From Collinsella tanakaei YIT 12063 (lineage in GTDB: Bacteria; Actinomycetota; Coriobacteriia; Coriobacteriales; Coriobacteriaceae), in assembly GCF_000225705.1 (NCBI RefSeq), contig NZ_JH126469.1:141790-205789 (forward strand): a DNA stretch of 64,000 bases. The letters are read 5' to 3'. Positions 11,073-31,113 of the stretch are shown here, piece by piece. The position numbers and the translations under genes are program-made. The stretch's first letter is position 1. Each line of letters opens with the position of its first letter. A model generated the notes under the pieces. The model was not told where the DNA came from. It made no database searches and saw nothing but the letters and a program-made list of their open reading frames with translations.

Positions 11073-11248
11073 TTTGCGTGCAGCGCCAGCGCGTGCGGAT
11101 TTGCCTTTGCATCACGTTGGGTTTCTACCGGGTTTTGCTGCTTCTCGCGTCGCCTTCCTGCACGCTCTGCTCTTTATATGGTTGCGCCGTCCTCATGCGC
11201 ACGCATGTTGGATAATTGCATGCGGATGGATTGAACGGGAGGAATTGA

Positions 11249-11986
11249 ATGGCGCAAACAACAGTTGAGATACTCTATCCCGAATTTGGCAACCAGGCGG
11301 GGGACAACGGCAACGCGATGTACCTTCGCGCCTGCCTGCCTCATGCCACCTTTATAGAAACCGCGTTTGGCGAGGTCCCCGCGTTTGCCACGCGCGATGA
11401 CCTGTCGTTGGTCCTGCTATGCGGCATGACCGAGCGCCAGCAGGAGCGTGTGCTCGAGGCGCTCATGCCGTATCGCGACCGCCTGGCGGAACTCGCAGAC
11501 GCCGGCGTCCCCATGCTCTTTACCGGTAACGCGGTCGAGCTTCTGGGCAACATGATCATTACGCCGGAGGGCCGCGGCATCACCGGCCTGGGACTGTTTG
11601 ATATCGTGACGCACCAACTGACGCCCCAGCGATTCACCGGCGTTGGCCTGGGCACCTTTGAGCCCGCGCCGGGGGCGGACCCCATCGATATCGTCGGTTT
11701 CAAAATGCAATTCACGCAGGCCGAGGGCAAAAATGAAAAATGTCCCTTCTGCGTGCTCAAACAGGGTTTTGGCATCAACAAGAAAAGTGCTTACGAGGGC
11801 GTGCGTCGCAAGAACCTCATCGGCACTTGGTTTTTGGGCCCGCTTCTCACCATCAATCCGCCTTTCACCCGCTGGTTGCTCGATACCATGGGCGAGGCGG
11901 ATGCGCCCCTGGCGTTCGAAGGCGTTTCGATGAGGTCCTATAGCCAGCGCGTCAAGGATTTCGCGACCCCGGGTATGGATGTCTAG
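11249..11986 (+). CDS. GatD-like glutamine amidotransferase-fold protein lacking the catalytic Cys and His
   Basis: A 245-residue CobB/CobQ-type class-I amidotransferase-fold protein that precedes a MurT homologue. The GatD framework is recognisable: YPEFGNQAGDNGNAMYL near the start, GLGLFD, and a C-terminal AYEGVRRKNLIGTW...GPLLTINP. However, where GatD has the nucleophile (ICGGYQ-like), this protein has FTGNAVELLG, with Gly93. Where GatD has the catalytic His (GTYLHGPLL-like), it has GTWFLGPLL, with Leu196. In Staphylococcus aureus GatD these residues are Cys94 and His189, so the positions match. Glutaminase activity is therefore doubtful; a structural partner for the downstream MurT is more likely. 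The start ATG 11249 follows GGGAGG. Confidence 0.8.
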   Translation: MAQTTVEILYPEFGNQAGDNGNAMYLRACLPHATFIETAFGEVPAFATRDDLSLVLLCGMTERQQERVLEALMPYRDRLAELADAGVPMLFTGNAVELLGNMIITPEGRGITGLGLFDIVTHQLTPQRFTGVGLGTFEPAPGADPIDIVGFKMQFTQAEGKNEKCPFCVLKQGFGINKKSAYEGVRRKNLIGTWFLGPLLTINPPFTRWLLDTMGEADAPLAFEGVSMRSYSQRVKDFATPGMDV

Positions 11987-12069
11987 GCGCTAGGCTGGGT
12001 TTAGGCCCGCGACCTGTCCTCGTCCACAAACATGCACTACACGCCCTCCTAGCCAAGGAGTTCATAATA

Positions 12070-13485
12070 GTGAGTACTTCCACCAGCAAAACGCCTCGCT
12101 TCTACCTCGCGCTCGCCGCGGGTAAGGCAACGGCCACCGCGCTTAAGCTTGCCCGCAGAAACGGCGGCCAGCTTCCCGGTTCCGTTGCCGAGGCCATCTG
12201 CCCCGATTTTCTCGCCCGCTGCCCCAAGCCGCGCCGCGTTGTATTTGTAACGGGTACCAACGGCAAAACAACCACGTCCAATTTGCTGGACGATATTCTG
12301 CTTGCGTGCGGGTTCGATCTGGTGACCAACCGCGCCGGCGGCAACATCATCACGGGTATCGAGAGCTCTCTCATAAAGAACGCGCGTATGAGCGGCTCCC
12401 CGCGTTGCCAGGTAGCATGCATGGAGCTGGACGAGTTGTCCTCGCGCCGCGTGCTGCCCCATATGGTTCCCGAGGTGATGCTGGTCGCTAACCTGTATCG
12501 CGACAACTTTACCCGTAACGCTAACCCTGACTATATCTTTAGCGTGATCGATGCGAACATCCCGGCCTCGACGCATTTGGTACTCAACGCGGATGACTTG
12601 ATCTCCTGCCGCCTTGCGCCGCAGGCGACCAATCGCACCTACTTTTCCATCGACCATCTTGAGGACGATCTTGAGGGGCCGGAGGGTATTGTCTGCGATC
12701 TTACCGCGTGCCCGGAGTGCGGCGGCGCGCTTGAGTATGACTGGTGCCACCTGCGCCATCTGGGTCGCGCACACTGCACGTCGTGCGGTTTCAAGAATCC
12801 CGAGCCCGACTATCTGGTGACCCGCGTTGATAAAGAGGCGCATGAGTTTACGGTGCGCGAGCTGTGCCATGCGAAAGACGGCGTGGCGCCGGAGTATACC
12901 TATCACATCGGCACGTACTCAATCACCAATCTGTATAACTTGGTTTCCGCGTTGGTGACGGCTCGCGAACTTGGTGTCTCGGCCAAGGACCTGCAGCGCA
13001 CATTGGCGGACGGCAAAGTCAACGTCACCGCGGCGCGCTTTAGCGAGGAGACGGTGAAGGGCATGCGCCTGGTCAACACCGCTTCCAAGGGCGAGAACAG
13101 CACCGCCACCTCGACCGCCCTGGCGACTATTTGCCGCGAGGCGGGCGACAAGGCCGTGGTGCTGATGCTGGCGGATTACTACCTCGCAACCAATCCCAAG
13201 AAGACCGAGTACACCGGTTGGTATTATCAGGCTGATTTTGAATACCTGGCAGACCCAGCCATCAAGCAGGTTATTGTCCAGGGTGCGAATTCGGACGATT
13301 TGCTGCTGCGTTTGCTGATGGCGGGTATCGATAAGGACAACATTTATCTGGCTGAGACCGAGCAGGAGGCTGCGGATATGGTCGAGCTGGACGGTATCGA
13401 TGGCGTGTTCTGCGCGTATGACATCTTTAACGGCGAGCAGGCCGATGCGTTTCGCACGCGCGTGGCGGAGCGCCTGCGCGGGTAG
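12070..13485 (+). CDS. murT: MurT-like Mur ligase (lipid II amidation type)
   Basis: A 471-residue Mur-ligase-family protein of MurT type. It shows the P-loop VTGTNGKTTT (residues 60-69), the MurT-specific zinc ribbon with Cys214/Cys217 and Cys236/Cys239, and a C-terminal DUF1727-like domain. MurT with GatD converts D-Glu to D-isoGln in lipid II at the inner membrane. The C-terminal site that normally reads like SWIWDVDFE, carrying the third triad residue (Asp349 in S. aureus), here reads GWYYQADFE, with Gln387. That loss parallels the loss of Cys and His in the GatD-like partner. The start is GTG 12070, after CCAAGGAG at 12053-12060. The 83-base gap from the upstream gene contains CTCGTCCA (12019-12026). 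Confidence 0.88.
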   Translation: MSTSTSKTPRFYLALAAGKATATALKLARRNGGQLPGSVAEAICPDFLARCPKPRRVVFVTGTNGKTTTSNLLDDILLACGFDLVTNRAGGNIITGIESSLIKNARMSGSPRCQVACMELDELSSRRVLPHMVPEVMLVANLYRDNFTRNANPDYIFSVIDANIPASTHLVLNADDLISCRLAPQATNRTYFSIDHLEDDLEGPEGIVCDLTACPECGGALEYDWCHLRHLGRAHCTSCGFKNPEPDYLVTRVDKEAHEFTVRELCHAKDGVAPEYTYHIGTYSITNLYNLVSALVTARELGVSAKDLQRTLADGKVNVTAARFSEETVKGMRLVNTASKGENSTATSTALATICREAGDKAVVLMLADYYLATNPKKTEYTGWYYQADFEYLADPAIKQVIVQGANSDDLLLRLLMAGIDKDNIYLAETEQEAADMVELDGIDGVFCAYDIFNGEQADAFRTRVAERLRG

Positions 13486-13581: not shown

Positions 13582-14059
13582 GTGTGCATCTATGTTGTTT
13601 AGGCCCGCTATGCCATTGTGTGGGCTCGCGGTTGCATGGGGGCAGTGTGGGCGTCGGGCGGCGCGTTGCGGGGACCGTCCGGCAAACCGATGAATAAAAC
13701 CAAGAACAACCTGTATCGTATGCTGAGCGCCGTTTACTCATTTCGTAAGCGCTCAGAGGGCTGAATATGCATAAGATGTATAAAGTGCAGCAAGCGCTAT
13801 AGTCATATAGAGTGCCCAACAGGGAAGATATGCATGAGCGACTATGATGAAATATGTAGGATTAGCAGGTATCTTTCAAAATAAGCGTCCAAGATTACGC
13901 TGAGGGGCAAAAGAGTACCGTTCACCCGTCCTTATTGCTAGAAATGAATAAAAACAAGCATATTGAGAATATACTCCTAGACAAGCGCACAGGCGTCGCT
14001 TAGGCGTTTGTGGTAAGAGGCACAAGAAGCAATGTTCCTCTGTGAGAAAGGAAACCACC
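13582..14059 (+). other. Intergenic region before arcC, no convincing gene
   Basis: About 480 bases, the distal part AT-rich. A perfect 8-base inverted repeat (CTGAGCGC 13723-13730, GCGCTCAG 13749-13756) is visible. Short open frames such as a 24-codon one from ATG 13690 lack a ribosome site and overlap that repeat. TATACT near 13971 may be a -10 box for arcC. I see nothing else to annotate. Confidence 0.5.
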
Positions 14060-15022
14060 ATGTCCAAGCCGCTCGGCAAGCCCGATCGCATCGTCGTCGC
14101 CCTCGGCGGCAACGCGCTCGGCAACACCCCTGAGGAGCAGATCGAGAAGGTCGGCCACGCCGCCCACGCCCTCCTGGGCCTCATCGAGCAGGGCAACGAG
14201 ATCATCATCACCCACGGCAACGGCCCGCAGGTCGGCATGATCCAGAACGCCTTCGCCGCCGCCCACGACGCCATCGGCACCCCCGCCATGGACCTGCCCG
14301 AGTGCGGCGCCATGAGCCAGGGCTACATCGGCTACCACCTGCAGCAGGGCATCGGCCGCGAGATGCACCGCCGCTACAAGCGCTGGCACGCCGCCACCGT
14401 CGTCACCCAGATCGAGTGCGACCCGGACGACCCCGCGTTCGCCAACCCCACCAAGCCCATCGGCCCGTTCTACACCGAGGAGCAGGCCAAGGAGATTATG
14501 GCCGAGAATCCCGAGATGGTCTTCGTCGAGGACTCCGGCCGCGGCTGGCGCCGCGTCGTCGCCTCCCCCGAGCCCAAGAAGATCGTCGAGGCCGACTCCA
14601 TCCTGAACCTGCTCGACAACGAGTTCATCGTCATCGCCTGCGGCGGCGGCGGAATCCCCGTGGTCCGCGACTACGGCAACAAGGGCTGCTACAAGGGCGT
14701 GGCCGCCGTCATCGACAAGGATATGGGCGGCGAGCTGCTCGCAGAGGACTGCGGCGCGGACGTCCTGTTCCTGCTGACCGCCGTCGAGCACGTCGCCATC
14801 AACTTCGGCAAGCCCGACCAGCAGGAGCTCGAGGAGCTCACCGCCGACGAGGCCGAGCGCCTCGCCGACGAGGGCCAGTTCGGCAAGGGCTCCATGGAGC
14901 CCAAGGTCCGCGCCGCCATCAAGTTCGCCCGCTCCCGCAAGGGCCGCACCTGCATCATCGGAGCCCTCGACAAGGCCGCCGAGACCATGGCCGGCCTCTC
15001 CGGCACCCGCATCTGCGGCTAA
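14060..15022 (+). CDS. arcC: Carbamate kinase
   Basis: A 320-residue protein of normal length. It has the amino-acid-kinase motifs VVALGGNALGNTP near the N-terminus and ITHGNGPQVGMIQN, then GYIGYHLQQ, VVTQIECDPDDPAF, a GGGGIPV loop, IDKDMGGELLAEDCGAD and GSMEPKVRAAIKF. It makes ATP from carbamoyl phosphate and ADP, releasing ammonia and CO2, in the cytoplasm. The start ATG 14060 follows GAAAGGAAACC. No arginine deiminase or ornithine carbamoyltransferase lies within the window on either side; it appears monocistronic, bounded by its own upstream region and a terminator. Codon use is extremely biased, resembling nifJ, so it is probably a strongly expressed ATP-yielding step. The source of carbamoyl phosphate is not visible. 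Confidence 0.96.
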   Translation: MSKPLGKPDRIVVALGGNALGNTPEEQIEKVGHAAHALLGLIEQGNEIIITHGNGPQVGMIQNAFAAAHDAIGTPAMDLPECGAMSQGYIGYHLQQGIGREMHRRYKRWHAATVVTQIECDPDDPAFANPTKPIGPFYTEEQAKEIMAENPEMVFVEDSGRGWRRVVASPEPKKIVEADSILNLLDNEFIVIACGGGGIPVVRDYGNKGCYKGVAAVIDKDMGGELLAEDCGADVLFLLTAVEHVAINFGKPDQQELEELTADEAERLADEGQFGKGSMEPKVRAAIKFARSRKGRTCIIGALDKAAETMAGLSGTRICG

Positions 15023-23405: not shown

Positions 23406-24815
23406 GTGGATAACCAGCCTCGCGTGTTCCATAAATCGGCGTCGCGCAACATGACCAGGACATTGCGAAATGCCCAGCGCGTCGCAACAATTCTCTTGGG
23501 ACTGTGCGTCCCCTTTTTATTGATTCTCCTGGTTTGGGACCTTATGGCAAACCCCAGCCCGGTACCCGCGGTTGTCACCATCGCTGGCCTGGTTATGCTG
23601 TGCTTCTTCTTTAGCTACGTGTTCGTGGTTCCCGATGACCTTACCTCTAGCGCAACGGACCGCACGCTTAGCATCGCGTCCAAGATCTTTGTGCACACGC
23701 GCAAGGGCATGACGCCGGACGCCGCCATGGGCGCCTGCCAGATCATCTTGCCGGAGACGCTGGCGTCCGCCATGTGCATCACCGACGGCAAGCAGGTGCT
23801 GGCAAGCTGGGGCGAGGGGTGCGAGCGCTATCCCACCGGCCAGCCCGTGGTGCTGGATACCACGCTCAACGTGGTCTCGTCCAAGGTGATGAGCGTGTTC
23901 TCACGCGACGCCAACGACACGCGGGAGCGCGAGTTCTTCCCCCGTCTACGCGCGGGCATCGTGGCGCCGCTTACGGTGCGCGACCGCTGCGTGGGCACGC
24001 TGGAGCTTTACTACCCGCGCTTCAGCAACATCGACATGCGCCAGACCGCGCTGGCAACGGGCTTTGCGGACCTTATCTCTACGCAGCTGGCAAGTTTTGA
24101 GCTCGAGCGCCAGTCCGAGGTCTCGGCCCGCGTGGAGCTGCGAGCGCTGCAGTCGCAGGTGGATCCGCATTTCCTCTTCAACACCATCGGCACCATCGTG
24201 TCGCTGGTGCGCACCGAGCCCGAGAAAGCGCGCTCGCTGCTTATCGACTTTTCCAACTACTACCGCCAAACGCTGTCTGATTCCGAGAGCCTCACCACGC
24301 TTGAGCGCGAGGTGGAGCAGGGCATTCGCTACATCAACCTCATGCAGGCGCGCTATGGCGAGGGGCGCCTTAAGGTGGAGACGCGCATCGATCCGGATAC
24401 GGTGGAGTGCAAGGTGCCGCCCTTCATCTTGCAGCCGCTGCTAGAGAACTGCGTCAAGCACGCCATGCGCGAGGTCGAGCCGCTGTCGATCTTTGTTTTG
24501 TCGCGCACAACCGCCCGGGGCCTGGAGATAGTGGTCGCAGACGACGGCATAGGTATGAGCGAGAAGGTTCAGCAGCACCTGTTTGACCCACCGGAGGCTC
24601 CTCGTCCAGATGAGCCGGAGACCGTGACGGCAGATGGCTCCATCAAGCGCGGGTGCGGCCTTGCGCTCTGCAACGTCTTGATGCGCATCCACTTCTTCTT
24701 TGGTGAGGAATCGGGCATTAAGGTCGAGTCGAAAGAGGGCGAGGGCACCGCGATCACGGTTGCGCTTATTGGCGAGCCGCACGAGCCCGCGCCCGCGCAA
24801 AGCCTGCTGCCCTAG
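23406..24815 (+). CDS. LytS-type sensor histidine kinase (first of two)
   Basis: A 469-residue membrane kinase. Two transmembrane segments lie near residues 28-45 and 56-76, followed by a GAF-like sensor region (residues about 110-235). The His-kinase domain has the phospho-acceptor motif DPHFLFNTIGT (His255) and a HATPase with LQPLLENCVKH and DDGIGMS. It would autophosphorylate and pass phosphate to the LytTR regulator that starts 44 bases downstream. The start is taken as GTG 23406; an ATG at 23451 is an alternative. A TACAAT at 23357-23362 may be the -10 box. The protein is closely similar in layout to the kinase at 28934-30292. The signal is unknown. Confidence 0.9.
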   Translation: MDNQPRVFHKSASRNMTRTLRNAQRVATILLGLCVPFLLILLVWDLMANPSPVPAVVTIAGLVMLCFFFSYVFVVPDDLTSSATDRTLSIASKIFVHTRKGMTPDAAMGACQIILPETLASAMCITDGKQVLASWGEGCERYPTGQPVVLDTTLNVVSSKVMSVFSRDANDTREREFFPRLRAGIVAPLTVRDRCVGTLELYYPRFSNIDMRQTALATGFADLISTQLASFELERQSEVSARVELRALQSQVDPHFLFNTIGTIVSLVRTEPEKARSLLIDFSNYYRQTLSDSESLTTLEREVEQGIRYINLMQARYGEGRLKVETRIDPDTVECKVPPFILQPLLENCVKHAMREVEPLSIFVLSRTTARGLEIVVADDGIGMSEKVQQHLFDPPEAPRPDEPETVTADGSIKRGCGLALCNVLMRIHFFFGEESGIKVESKEGEGTAITVALIGEPHEPAPAQSLLP

Positions 24816-24859
24816 GCAATCAACACGTTCGAGCCCAGCACGTTCGAGAGGGGATAGAC

Positions 24860-25594
24860 ATGAGTGATCAGTGGAGCGTTCTGGTGGTCGATGATGAACC
24901 GCCCATACGCGCAGAGCTTCGCTATTTGCTTGAGCAAGACGAGCGCATTGGCAGAGTGGATGAGGCGGGCGGCGCCACGCAGGCGGTCGAGAAGATCCTG
25001 GGCAGCCGTCCGGACGTGCTGTTTCTAGACATACAGATGCCGGGTACCAGCGGTATCAAGCTGGCAGAGACGCTATCGAACCTCAAGACGCCCCCGGTGG
25101 TGGTGTTTGTAACCGCGTTTGCCGAGTACGCCGCTACGGCCTTTGAGCTCGATGCCGTCGACTACGTGCTCAAGCCGGTGGAGACCAAGCGCCTGGAGAA
25201 GGCGTTGGACAAGGTGGCTACCGCTATGTCGGCCCGCACGCCCGCGCCCGTGGCGGAGCGCGTTATGCGCCTGTCGGTCGAGCGCGGCGGCAAGCGCGCG
25301 TTCATCCCCGTGAGCGACATTGTCTATATAGAGGCCAAGGCGGACTACTCCAGCGTGATCACCGCCGCTGGCAGCTATTTGGTGAACGAGTCTATCTCGT
25401 CTCTCGAACGTCGCCTGGCGCCGCAGGGCTTTATGCGCGTGCACCGCAGCTTTTTGGTGAATCTGGACGATGTACATGATGTCGAGGTGTCGCGTTCCGG
25501 CCTGATGGACCTCAAGGTCGAGCGGGTGGATGCTTCGGTGCCCGTGTCGCGCCGCCGCGCGTCTGAGGTCAAGGTTCGCCTTGGTCTGGCGTAG
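24860..25594 (+). CDS. LytTR-family response regulator (first of two)
   Basis: A 244-residue regulator. The receiver domain has VLVVDDEPPIRAELR, the phospho-acceptor Asp57 (FLDIQMPG) and FVTAFAEYAATAFELDAVDYVLKP. The C-terminal LytTR DNA-binding domain covers about residues 145-244 (DIVYIEAKADYSSVIT, then FMRVHRSFLVNLDDV, ending SVPVSRRRASEVK). It pairs with the kinase immediately upstream. LytTR regulators often control autolysis, cell-surface or competence genes; the targets are not visible. The start ATG follows GAGAGGGG. Confidence 0.94.
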   Translation: MSDQWSVLVVDDEPPIRAELRYLLEQDERIGRVDEAGGATQAVEKILGSRPDVLFLDIQMPGTSGIKLAETLSNLKTPPVVVFVTAFAEYAATAFELDAVDYVLKPVETKRLEKALDKVATAMSARTPAPVAERVMRLSVERGGKRAFIPVSDIVYIEAKADYSSVITAAGSYLVNESISSLERRLAPQGFMRVHRSFLVNLDDVHDVEVSRSGLMDLKVERVDASVPVSRRRASEVKVRLGLA

Positions 25595-27752: not shown

Positions 27753-28937
27753 ATGAAACCTGCGATCGTGATTCCCACCTACTGGGCGGGCAATCATGAG
27801 GACACGCTGGCCCCCGGTGCCTACGACCACTCCACAAGCCTTACCGCGGAACGGCCCGAGCTCGAGCGCTGTCTTGCGTCTCTCGAGCAGGTTCGCGGGC
27901 TACCACGCATCATCTTGCTTGTCATATGCCCCTTGTCTGCCACGCGGGACGTCACGCTGCGTATCGAGCACATTCTCTACCATCATCCCAACCTCAACGT
28001 CACGCTTCTCACCAACATCGAGGCCTCGCGCATCATGGACCGCGTGAACGAGCTTGCGCCCAAGATCAAGGGCGAGGCCGTATCGCTGCGCGGGTACGGC
28101 GCCATTCGCAACATGGGTCTGGCAGCCGCCGCCATCTTGGGCCATGACGCGGTGGTGTTTTTGGACGATGACGAGGTGGTCCTCGCCCCGGATTTCATGG
28201 AGAAGGCCCTCTATGCGCTTGGTGCGGAGACGCGCCAGCGCCTGCCCATCCTTGCCAAGAGCGGTTACTTTTACGATCGCGAGGGGTCTCCGCTGGCGGA
28301 TACCTCGCGTGCCGGCATCACCCAGCGCTGGTGGACCAAGCGCATCGAGTTCAACCGTTGGATGAAAAAGGCCCTCTCTGCCACGAGGATCTCGCGGTCC
28401 AACTACGTGTGCGGTGGCTGCATGGCCCTGCATGCCCGGGCGTTTACGCGCGTGGCGTTCGACCCCTTTATCACCCGTGGCGAGGATCTTGATTATCTGT
28501 TCAACATGCGTCTGTTTGGCTATGACGTGTGGTTTGATAACGCATGGGTGGTCAAGCACCTGCCGCCGGAGAGCCATGAGAGCGCGCCGCGCTTTATGCA
28601 AAACGTCTACCGCTGGTATTATGAACGGGCAAAACTGACGTATGCCAGCAGGCAGAAGGAATACAACCAGGTAACGCCGGCGTCGCTCATGCCGTATCCG
28701 GGTCCGTGGATCTCGCCGGGATTGGATGAGCGCGTTCGCAAGACGTCCCTCGCCCGCGCCGTGTTCACTCGCGAGCGCCGCGCGTATTGGAACATCTGGC
28801 GCCACGGTCGCGAAGATGCGGAACGCTATGCCGCGGACAACGCTGACCAATACCTGAAATTCCAAAGCTTCTGGCCGAGTATCATGGACGGCTTGTGGGG
28901 AGATATCTCGCTTGCCGCCATGCTGGAGCGCCGATGA
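27753..28937 (+). CDS. Glycosyltransferase, GT2-like (GT-A fold)
   Basis: A 394-residue cytosolic enzyme. The N-terminus AIVIPTYWAG is the start of a GT-A Rossmann fold. The metal-binding motif VVFLDDDEVVL lies at about residues 133-143, and a later GEDLDYLFNMRLFGYDVWF corresponds to the acceptor and catalytic ED region. No membrane segment is clear. It probably transfers a sugar to a surface glycan or lipid; donor and acceptor are unknown. I chose ATG 27753, about ten bases after GGAAAGGG; GTG 27747 is possible. Its stop overlaps the start of the next histidine kinase by four bases (ATGA), so the two are translationally coupled. Confidence 0.85.
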   Translation: MKPAIVIPTYWAGNHEDTLAPGAYDHSTSLTAERPELERCLASLEQVRGLPRIILLVICPLSATRDVTLRIEHILYHHPNLNVTLLTNIEASRIMDRVNELAPKIKGEAVSLRGYGAIRNMGLAAAAILGHDAVVFLDDDEVVLAPDFMEKALYALGAETRQRLPILAKSGYFYDREGSPLADTSRAGITQRWWTKRIEFNRWMKKALSATRISRSNYVCGGCMALHARAFTRVAFDPFITRGEDLDYLFNMRLFGYDVWFDNAWVVKHLPPESHESAPRFMQNVYRWYYERAKLTYASRQKEYNQVTPASLMPYPGPWISPGLDERVRKTSLARAVFTRERRAYWNIWRHGREDAERYAADNADQYLKFQSFWPSIMDGLWGDISLAAMLERR

Positions 28938-30292
28938 ACGATAAAAACAAGTCTATTCGGGGGGCTGCGCGTTCAGCGCTGCTGGCGAGCATTCCGTTGC
29001 TGCGCGTCGCCGCCGCGGTGTGCGCGCTTGCGCTCGCCGTCTATCTTGTCTACTCCATTATCGAGGGGACGGAATCCATTCTCACGCTGGTGGCGTGCGC
29101 GCTTATGTGCGTCTTCCTGCTCATCTTCGCCCACCTGTGCCTCAACCCGGATACCCTGCGCTCCCAGTACGCCGAGCAAACGCTTTCCATCGCGTCGGAG
29201 ATGCTTGAGGATATTCGCGATGGCCTTACGCCCGAGAGCGCCGAGGCCATTTGCCGGCGCCTGCTGCCCGAGACCCGCGCGATGACCATCGCCGTGACCG
29301 ACCGCGAGCGCGTGCTCGCCTGCGTGGGCACGCTTGCAGAGCAGTTTCCACCTGGGTCTCCCATCCATACGCCCGCGACGCGTTATGCCTTGGACCACGG
29401 CTTGGTGCAGTCGTTTACCAACGCCACGCCCACGTTTAACGACTCCCTTACGGCGCCGCCGATCCCGGCGGGCATCATCGCCCCGCTCAAGGTTCGCGGC
29501 AAATCCGTGGGAACGCTCAAGTTCTATTTCAGCAGCCCGCACGCGGTCAATCGCACGCAGTACGCTTTGGTGTCTGGTTTTGCGGAGCTGATCTCTACCC
29601 AGCTGGCCACGCATGAGCTGGAGCGCCAGGACGAGTTGACGGCGCGCGCCGAGCTTCGCGCCCTGCAAGCGCAGATCAACCCGCATTTTCTGTTCAACAC
29701 GCTCAACACCATCGCCGCGCTTACGCGCACGGAGCCCGCTCGCGCTCGCGAGCTGCTTCGAGACTTCGCGGCGTTTTACCGCTCTACGCTCGATAACTCC
29801 GGTTCGCTGATCCCCGTGTCGCGTGAGCTCACGCAGACCAGTCGCTACCTTACGTTTGAACGCGCTCGCTTTGGCGATGACCGCGTCATCGCGACCATGG
29901 ATGTCGAAGAGGGGGTCGAGGACGCCCCGGTGCCCGCTTTCATCATCCAGCCATTGGTGGAGAACGCCGTGCGCCACGCTATGAAGGACGAGGGCGCGCT
30001 GCATATCACGGTGAGGGTGCGCTCAGAGGGCGGCGAGGGGATTTGCATCGAGGTGAGCGACGACGGCGCCGGCATGGATCGCGACACCGCTGCGCGCCTG
30101 TTCAACGCGTCGCTTCCCATGCCCGATTCCCAGTCGCCCCAGGGCGGCGGCGCGGGCGTGGCGACGCGCAACATCTCAGAGCGCATCAAGCGCTTCTACG
30201 GCCCCCGCTCCAGCGCGGAGGTTTCGTCCACCCCCGGTGAGGGCACCACCATTACGCTGCACCTTGATTTGCAAGAAAGTATGTTCGCGTAA
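28934..30292 (+). CDS. LytS-type sensor histidine kinase (second of two)
   Basis: A 452-residue kinase with the same layout as the one at 23406-24815. It has two N-terminal membrane segments (about residues 16-36 and 42-62), a GAF-like region, then NPHFLFNTLNTIAALTRTEP (His251) and a HATPase with IQPLVENAVRHA and DDGAGMD. I chose ATG 28934, giving a four-base overlap with the upstream glycosyltransferase; an upstream in-frame start at 28895 would lie inside that gene. The cognate LytTR regulator starts 101 bases downstream. The kinase senses an unknown signal, possibly related to the cell envelope, given the coupled glycosyltransferase. Confidence 0.92.
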   Translation: MNDKNKSIRGAARSALLASIPLLRVAAAVCALALAVYLVYSIIEGTESILTLVACALMCVFLLIFAHLCLNPDTLRSQYAEQTLSIASEMLEDIRDGLTPESAEAICRRLLPETRAMTIAVTDRERVLACVGTLAEQFPPGSPIHTPATRYALDHGLVQSFTNATPTFNDSLTAPPIPAGIIAPLKVRGKSVGTLKFYFSSPHAVNRTQYALVSGFAELISTQLATHELERQDELTARAELRALQAQINPHFLFNTLNTIAALTRTEPARARELLRDFAAFYRSTLDNSGSLIPVSRELTQTSRYLTFERARFGDDRVIATMDVEEGVEDAPVPAFIIQPLVENAVRHAMKDEGALHITVRVRSEGGEGICIEVSDDGAGMDRDTAARLFNASLPMPDSQSPQGGGAGVATRNISERIKRFYGPRSSAEVSSTPGEGTTITLHLDLQESMFA

Positions 30293-30393
30293 GGGTTCTT
30301 ACTTCGGGGTAGAATGGTATAACGCCGTCTCATCGCTCGTGCTTGGATGAGAGGCGTGACGCACGGGATATTGTTGTTGGAAGGAATGTACGT

Positions 30394-31113
30394 ATGCTGC
30401 GTGCAATGATCGTTGATGATGAGGCGCCAGCCCGTTCCGAGCTTCGGTTCCTGCTTGAGCAGACGGGGAAGATCGGTTCGATCAACGAGGCGTCGAGCGT
30501 TCGCTCGGCAATAGAAATGCTGATGGAGAATCGGGTGGACGTTGTGTTCCTGGATATCTCCATGCCGGGCGCATCGGGCATTCAGCTCGCTGAGGCGCTG
30601 CACAAGCTCAAGAACCCGCCCGCCGTGGTCTTTGTGACCGCCTATAGCGACCATGCCGTTGAGGCGTTTGATGTCGATGCCACCGATTACCTGATGAAGC
30701 CGGTTGAGGAAGCCCGTTTGGATCAGGCGATCAACAAGGTGCTCGCGCGCGTCAAGCCCACATCGGACAGTAGCAAGAGCTCTATCGAGCGCATCCCCGT
30801 CGAGAAGGGTGGCCGCAAGGTCCTTATTCCCGTCGACCAGATTCGCTACATCATGGCCAAGGACGATTATTCCTGCATCTTCACGGAGGACGATCGATAC
30901 CTGTCCACCACCTCGTTGGCACAGTTTGAATCGAAGCTGGGCGACTTTGGGTTCTTTCGCGTGCACCGTCGCTACATTGTTAACCTCGCCAACGTCGAGG
31001 ACGTCGAGACGGTGCCCTCTGGCGCTATTCAGCTGGGCGTGTCGGGTCTAGATGACCGTATCCCGGTTTCTCGTCGCAGGGTGGTTCCCCTCAAGAAGGC
31101 GCTCAATCTGTAG
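30394..31113 (+). CDS. LytTR-family response regulator (second of two)
   Basis: A 239-residue regulator. The receiver has AMIVDDEAPARSELRFLLEQ, Asp54 (FLDISMPG) and VTAYSDHAVEAFDVDATDYLMKP. The LytTR domain follows (QIRYIMAKDDYSCIFT, FFRVHRRYIVNLANVE, IPVSRRRVVPLK). It is strongly similar to the regulator at 24860-25594, indicating a duplicated two-component system. ATG 30394 follows TTGGAAGGAATG; an in-frame start at 30343 would add residues not seen in receivers. TAGAAT in GGGGTAGAATGG near 30308 may be its own -10 box. Confidence 0.93.
   Translation: MLRAMIVDDEAPARSELRFLLEQTGKIGSINEASSVRSAIEMLMENRVDVVFLDISMPGASGIQLAEALHKLKNPPAVVFVTAYSDHAVEAFDVDATDYLMKPVEEARLDQAINKVLARVKPTSDSSKSSIERIPVEKGGRKVLIPVDQIRYIMAKDDYSCIFTEDDRYLSTTSLAQFESKLGDFGFFRVHRRYIVNLANVEDVETVPSGAIQLGVSGLDDRIPVSRRRVVPLKKALNL

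Follow-up and report, generated by a model that had tools for sequence, protein, structure and literature searches.

Can a GatD-like protein without the catalytic residues of a glutaminase still serve a cell wall ligase, and which amine would such a ligase use? This question is raised by a gatD-murT pair of Collinsella tanakaei YIT 12063, carried in a 64,000-nucleotide stretch of DNA that was analysed as a whole (the window). The amidation of D-Glu by MurT-GatD is a studied antibacterial target and alters the view that host NOD receptors have of the cell wall. The pair shares its two-protein architecture with the MurT-GatD lipid II isoglutaminyl synthases of Staphylococcus aureus, Streptococcus pneumoniae and Streptococcus pyogenes (PDB 6gs2, 6h5e, 6fqb and 9sq9), which have in common the Mur ligase middle and MurT_C domains, a Cys4 ribbon and an adjoining or fused GATase_3-like GatD. 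Pfam assigned the GatD-like protein to PF07685 (GATase_3; 39.7 bits, cut-off 27) and the MurT-like protein to PF08353 (MurT_C; 50.4 bits, cut-off 25) and PF08245 (Mur_ligase_M; 26.9 bits, cut-off 24). Both proteins scored far below the NCBIfam equivalog cut-offs, with 54.2 bits against 450 and 47.8 against 400 for the GatD-like protein, and 187.2 and 143.4 against 800 for the MurT-like one.

Table 1. Features of the gatD-murT locus, in window positions.
Feature	Position	Strand	Basis
Shine-Dalgarno-like GGGAGG ahead of gatD-like gene	11237..11242	+	sequence
GatD-like protein, 245 aa, GATase_3 fold, without catalytic Cys/His	11249..11986	+	PF07685
Gly93 codon, site of S. aureus GatD nucleophile Cys94	11525..11527	+	phmmer alignment
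IVGFKMQFTQ (148-157), in place of canonical GFENHGGR next to glutaminase site	11690..11719	+	
Leu196 codon, site of S. aureus GatD His189	11834..11836	+	phmmer alignment
Shine-Dalgarno-like AAGGAG ahead of murT-like gene	12055..12060	+	sequence
MurT-like Mur ligase, 471 aa, GTG start	12070..13485	+	PF08353, PF08245
P-loop GTNGKTTT (62-69), intact	12253..12276	+	
Cys4 zinc ribbon (C214, C217, C236, C239), intact	12709..12786	+	
ASKGENSTA loop (338-346), in place of canonical KNP loop	13081..13107	+	
Gln387 codon, site of S. aureus MurT Asp349	13228..13230	+	phmmer alignment

The original prediction held that the S. aureus triad residues Cys94 and His189 of GatD and Asp349 of MurT are all replaced in this pair. 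Both open reading frames were recovered as predicted, and phmmer alignments against PDB sequences agreed on all three sites: TICGGYQFLG pairs with LFTGNAVELLG, GTYLHGPIL with GTWFLGPLL, and SWIYDADFE with GWYYQADFE. A relocated Cys and His would have spoken against the prediction, and among the 12 closest GatD-like proteins no Cys or His is invariant at any position. The framework, which had been described as intact, proved so in MurT and not in GatD, where the pocket is remodelled beyond one residue. FENHGGR is changed to FKMQFTQ (with K152, Q154, F155 and T156 near-invariant in Coriobacteriia), the second oxyanion-hole residue Gly95 to Asn94, and the cap Tyr (Y17 in S. aureus, Y30 in S. pneumoniae) to Ala17, this position being Ala or Gly in Coriobacteriia and Tyr or Phe in Clostridial members.

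On the ligase side, the P-loop, the NADD motif, the hinge Arg323 and the Glu/Asp set around E119-E122 are retained, as are Asn92 at the acceptor carboxylate (Asn85 in S. pneumoniae) and the four cysteines of the zinc-ribbon insertion, which are invariant; judged by these residues, the MurT-like half looks intact. Gln387 also corresponds to the S. pneumoniae gate residue Asp361, and the other gate residue, Asp355, aligns with Tyr381, the S. pneumoniae numbering being mapped with a chain offset that the phmmer MurT alignment suggests to be 18. The identity of the third triad residue is disputed: the role was assigned to MurT Asp349 in S. aureus (PMC6113224), whereas the S. pneumoniae study named a GatD Asp (PMC6085368), and the equivalent of that GatD residue (S. 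pneumoniae Asp32) is kept here as Asp19.

The genome (2.49 Mb, 99.9% complete) holds a single MurT_C gene. A second, canonical murT-gatD was looked for, as the original prediction had advised, and none was found, nor was a second GatD, the other GATase_3 matches in the genome resembling CobQ, CobB and HisH by sequence.

Comparison across the family showed that the replacement of the catalytic residues follows a strict pattern. Cys and His were both present in 74 of 212 aligned GatD homologues and both absent from the remainder, save four with alignment gaps, and none of the 212 had Cys or His alone. The joint retention or loss of the two residues is more than chance. The MurT loop follows GatD, being of the KNP type where Cys and His occur and of the KxxN type where they do not (92 non-redundant pairs). 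Among 187 linked murT-gatD pairs, 59 were fused, and the gatD-murT order is a peculiarity of the window's Collinsella clade, other pairs being murT-gatD or fused. In a maximum likelihood tree (quick method) computed with the Cys, His and loop columns masked, all canonical pairs lay on one side of a single branch with an SH-aLRT of 99; the tree is unrooted, so that this branch may be read as gain or as loss. Their separation by one branch despite the masking indicates that the split between canonical and triad-less pairs is old, and the same tree speaks against the idea that the canonical fused pair found in Collinsella decayed recently into the triad-less one.

Two families make up the triad-less side. 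Family I, from Coriobacteriia and Clostridia, has the motifs FTGNAxE and GFKxQF; family II, from Oscillospirales, has GFxNK and SKHENS. Family I GatD retains an Arg at, or one column off, the position of the glutamine-sequestering R128 of S. aureus GatD (PMC5871853), the alignments disagreeing by one column. At the Asp349 site, Coriobacteriia have Gln or Glu, whereas most Clostridial members have Asp and a few have Glu, which makes the loss of Asp349 a separate step. The original prediction had treated all three replacements as one correlated loss over two genes; this was not borne out, since Cys and His are absent across an ancient sister family, whereas the replacement of Asp349 is largely confined to the Coriobacteriia within it. 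In family II (loci L130-L145) the SKHENS loop of MurT is almost invariant and Asp349 is retained. Moreover, fused genes of rumen Atopobiaceae and related MAGs carry His (FTHSAAE) instead of Gly at the Cys94 site (L051, L053, L058-L063, L072), and one Collinsella genome (G022, L157:2034-4103) holds a third, highly divergent triad-less type on a long branch (VVGTTVC, TNCLGP, GTNGKST), possibly an independent loss.

The triad-less pairs are under strong purifying selection and are not decaying. The dN/dS ratio was 0.03-0.16 in ten triad-less comparisons, one further comparison being saturated, and in family I conservation reached the 95th-96th percentile in windows over the nucleophile elbow, over the stretch that corresponds to FENHGGR and over the His loop, about as in canonical GatD. 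Gene order shifts and fusions never split the pair. For a native fused member, AlphaFold2 gave a model with a pLDDT of 93 and a pTM of 0.90, whose best Foldseek matches were MurT (TM up to 0.79) and GatD (TM 0.80) structures. Random decay, already doubted in the original prediction on account of intact motifs, does not account for the replacement, given the lockstep of Cys and His and the purifying selection.

The named neighbours Collinsella sp. BA40 (88%) and C. phocaeensis (74%) agree with the origin of the window in Collinsella. Some but not all Collinsella have a triad-less GatD, which is also present in Lancefieldella rimae and strains of Atopobium, in Atopobiaceae of the rumen and in MAGs of Oscillospirales/Ruminococcus. 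Other Collinsella carry a canonical fused MurT-GatD with Cys, His and Asp present and about 35% MurT identity. When Coriobacteriia were searched with a profile built on the triad-less family, whole triad-less genes scored at E 1e-67 or better and canonical-type genes at 1e-24 or worse, only two fragments of one triad-less gene falling between both groups. A canonical match was also found in 2-3 of the 33 triad-less genomes as against 244 of the 367 others (400 Coriobacteriia genomes; Fisher p ~1e-11 for the exclusivity of both kinds, kinship ignored), with a profile that can under-detect canonical pairs and missed one in C. vaginalis. A single MurT_C gene was present in 14 of 16 triad-less genomes. 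No triad-less pair was seen among the best matches in 397 genomes of Actinomycetota outside Coriobacteriia, a search that independent losses could escape, given the family on which the profile was built. Beyond Coriobacteriia and Oscillospirales the search was a sample, and for the Actinomycetota and the Clostridial phylum the residue-by-residue reading covered the best matches.

Replacement could also be followed on the chromosome. In one Atopobiaceae genome (G049, L226:9193-11253), a canonical fused MurT-GatD lies inverted in the slot that holds the triad-less pair in relatives (L227, L211), flanked by PFOR and by QueT, glycosyltransferase, LytS, LytR and YfcE genes. Triad-less pairs usually stand in for the canonical pair, at times in the very same place on the chromosome, and this mutual replacement, together with the shared slot, argues that they do the same job. 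Tandem triad-less pairs, one of the Gln387 type and one of the Glu type, were observed in C. massiliensis (L056:8611-15150) and C. vaginalis (L057:6075-10705), the latter with a canonical fused pair in addition (L109/L151). The few genomes with both kinds, or with two tandem triad-less pairs, hint at roles that are not identical, which counts against a simple ammonia-fed substitute.

Wall chemistry and glutamine supply were also considered. A triad-less pair is present in Atopobium parvulum IPP 1246T, whose wall is of the ordinary A4-alpha L-Lys-D-Asp type (PMC3035223); consequently, the D-Glu alpha-carboxyl is not the cross-link point there, and no extra amino acid has been reported. A role as bridge ligase of group B peptidoglycan was rejected on the A-type wall of this one species, and the literature searched gave no usable data on the peptidoglycan type of Collinsella. 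Glutamine shortage was likewise dismissed as a cause, glutamine synthetase being present in 22 of 22 genomes checked, triad-less or not.

As the original prediction had proposed among its options, a ligase without glutaminase is the best reading of the pair. We consider most likely, at roughly an even chance, a glutamine-independent lipid II D-Glu ligase that works on free ammonia with GatD as non-catalytic partner, donor, acceptor and product being those that we infer. MurT, to judge from its retained ATP and acceptor residues, would phosphorylate the D-Glu alpha-carboxyl in the lipid II stem peptide; cytoplasmic free ammonia, and not ammonia derived from glutamine, would attack the acyl phosphate; and D-isoglutamine would be formed without a glutaminase. 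GatD would be kept since MurT needs it for activity, and the remodelled site where glutamine was once cleaved probably serves complex formation, gating or ligand binding. The GatD C94G mutant of S. aureus, which carries the same Cys-to-Gly change, lost the use of glutamine and in vitro kept NH3-dependent amidation of lipid II at pH 8.5, GatD still being required (PMC3266927). This experiment, the functional replacement, the shared synteny and the A. parvulum wall type favour ammonia and the usual D-Glu. Against it, however, the mutant used NH3 at pH 8.5 only and not at 7.5 (PMC3266927), the former active-site segments rank among the most conserved 4-5% of windows although the loss of a glutaminase needs none of this, the shift of the MurT KNP loop in step with GatD is unexplained by that loss alone, and an Arg at or beside the R128 position is kept in family I.

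The pocket once used for glutamine is remodelled yet highly conserved, and this counts towards a reading to which only a minority chance is given, in which the GatD pocket would bind or admit an amine larger than ammonia, either an amino acid or a polyamine, for MurT to attach to the alpha-carboxyl of D-Glu. Gly and polyamines are known as D-Glu substituents in other bacteria. The change of the cap Tyr to Ala or Gly in Coriobacteriia, the Tyr381 and Gln387 at the S. pneumoniae gate sites Asp355 and Asp361, and the MurT loop of the form [SA]Kx[EQ]N, whose spacing may match that of the MurD loop DSKATN, point the same way. On the other hand, Clostridial members retain the cap Tyr or Phe and mostly Asp349, canonical pairs are replaced in the same slot, no donor gene was consistently linked to the pair (the neighbours being the ordinary PFOR, QueT, glycosyltransferase, LytS/LytR and YfcE), and the A. 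parvulum wall is plain L-Lys-D-Asp (PMC3035223). The wider proposal that triad-less complexes are lipid II ligases of a kind not seen before, placing a non-ammonia amine (amino acid or polyamine) on D-Glu with the dead glutaminase as donor-binding pocket, is put forward with somewhat greater reserve. The tandem copies in C. massiliensis and C. vaginalis, the latter beside a canonical pair, would suit specialised enzymes that apply the same chemistry to another carboxyl of the wall precursor, such as the bridge D-Asp; this is unlikely, because the acceptor Asn and NADD motif are those of canonical MurT and the pair is the sole one in most genomes. That GatD hydrolyses glutamine through non-canonical residues might be argued from the retained Asp19 and the Arg near R128, but it is very improbable, as the family lacks any invariant Cys or His and glutaminase activity or glutamine use was abolished in S. 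aureus by C94A and H189A (PMC5871853) and by C94G (PMC3266927). Finally, the lost catalytic residues could mark an inactive remnant or a purely regulatory relic, which is scarcely credible for an ancient clade with dN/dS of 0.03-0.16, a high-confidence predicted fold and partners that stay together through fusions and rearrangements.

The pair differs from each of the systems nearest to it. In contrast to canonical MurT-GatD, the C. tanakaei proteins lack the Cys/His dyad and have Gln for Asp349, FKMQFTQ for FENHGGR and a KGEN for a KNP loop. The S. aureus C94G protein differs in being a product of mutagenesis in which the His, the pocket and the MurT loop are wild type. Archaeal MurT-like genes (PMC11915815) are likewise MurT homologues without glutaminase supply, but there GatD is absent, whereas in C. 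tanakaei it is kept and conserved. No description of a triad-less MurT-GatD family was found in the literature searched. Since this old branch is common among bacteria of the gut, mouth and rumen and has to work without glutaminase, it would alter annotation, 'glutamine amidotransferase' being the name of a protein that cannot use glutamine, and it would offer a natural system for studying how ammonia or another amine gets to a Mur-type active site. Moreover, Collinsella and Lancefieldella would lend themselves to direct tests of their wall chemistry, with the question of which amine is joined to the wall.

Some features of the surroundings deserve mention. A carbamate kinase gene adjoins the pair in the window (14042-15022), as at L036-L038, L042-L044, L047 and L052, and roughly a dozen loci have it next to the pair or close by, on a variable side; a tie to ammonia supply is possible, as a lead only. 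The window also holds two LytS/LytR-like two-component pairs (23406-25594 and 28895-31113), in a region syntenic with other triad-less loci.
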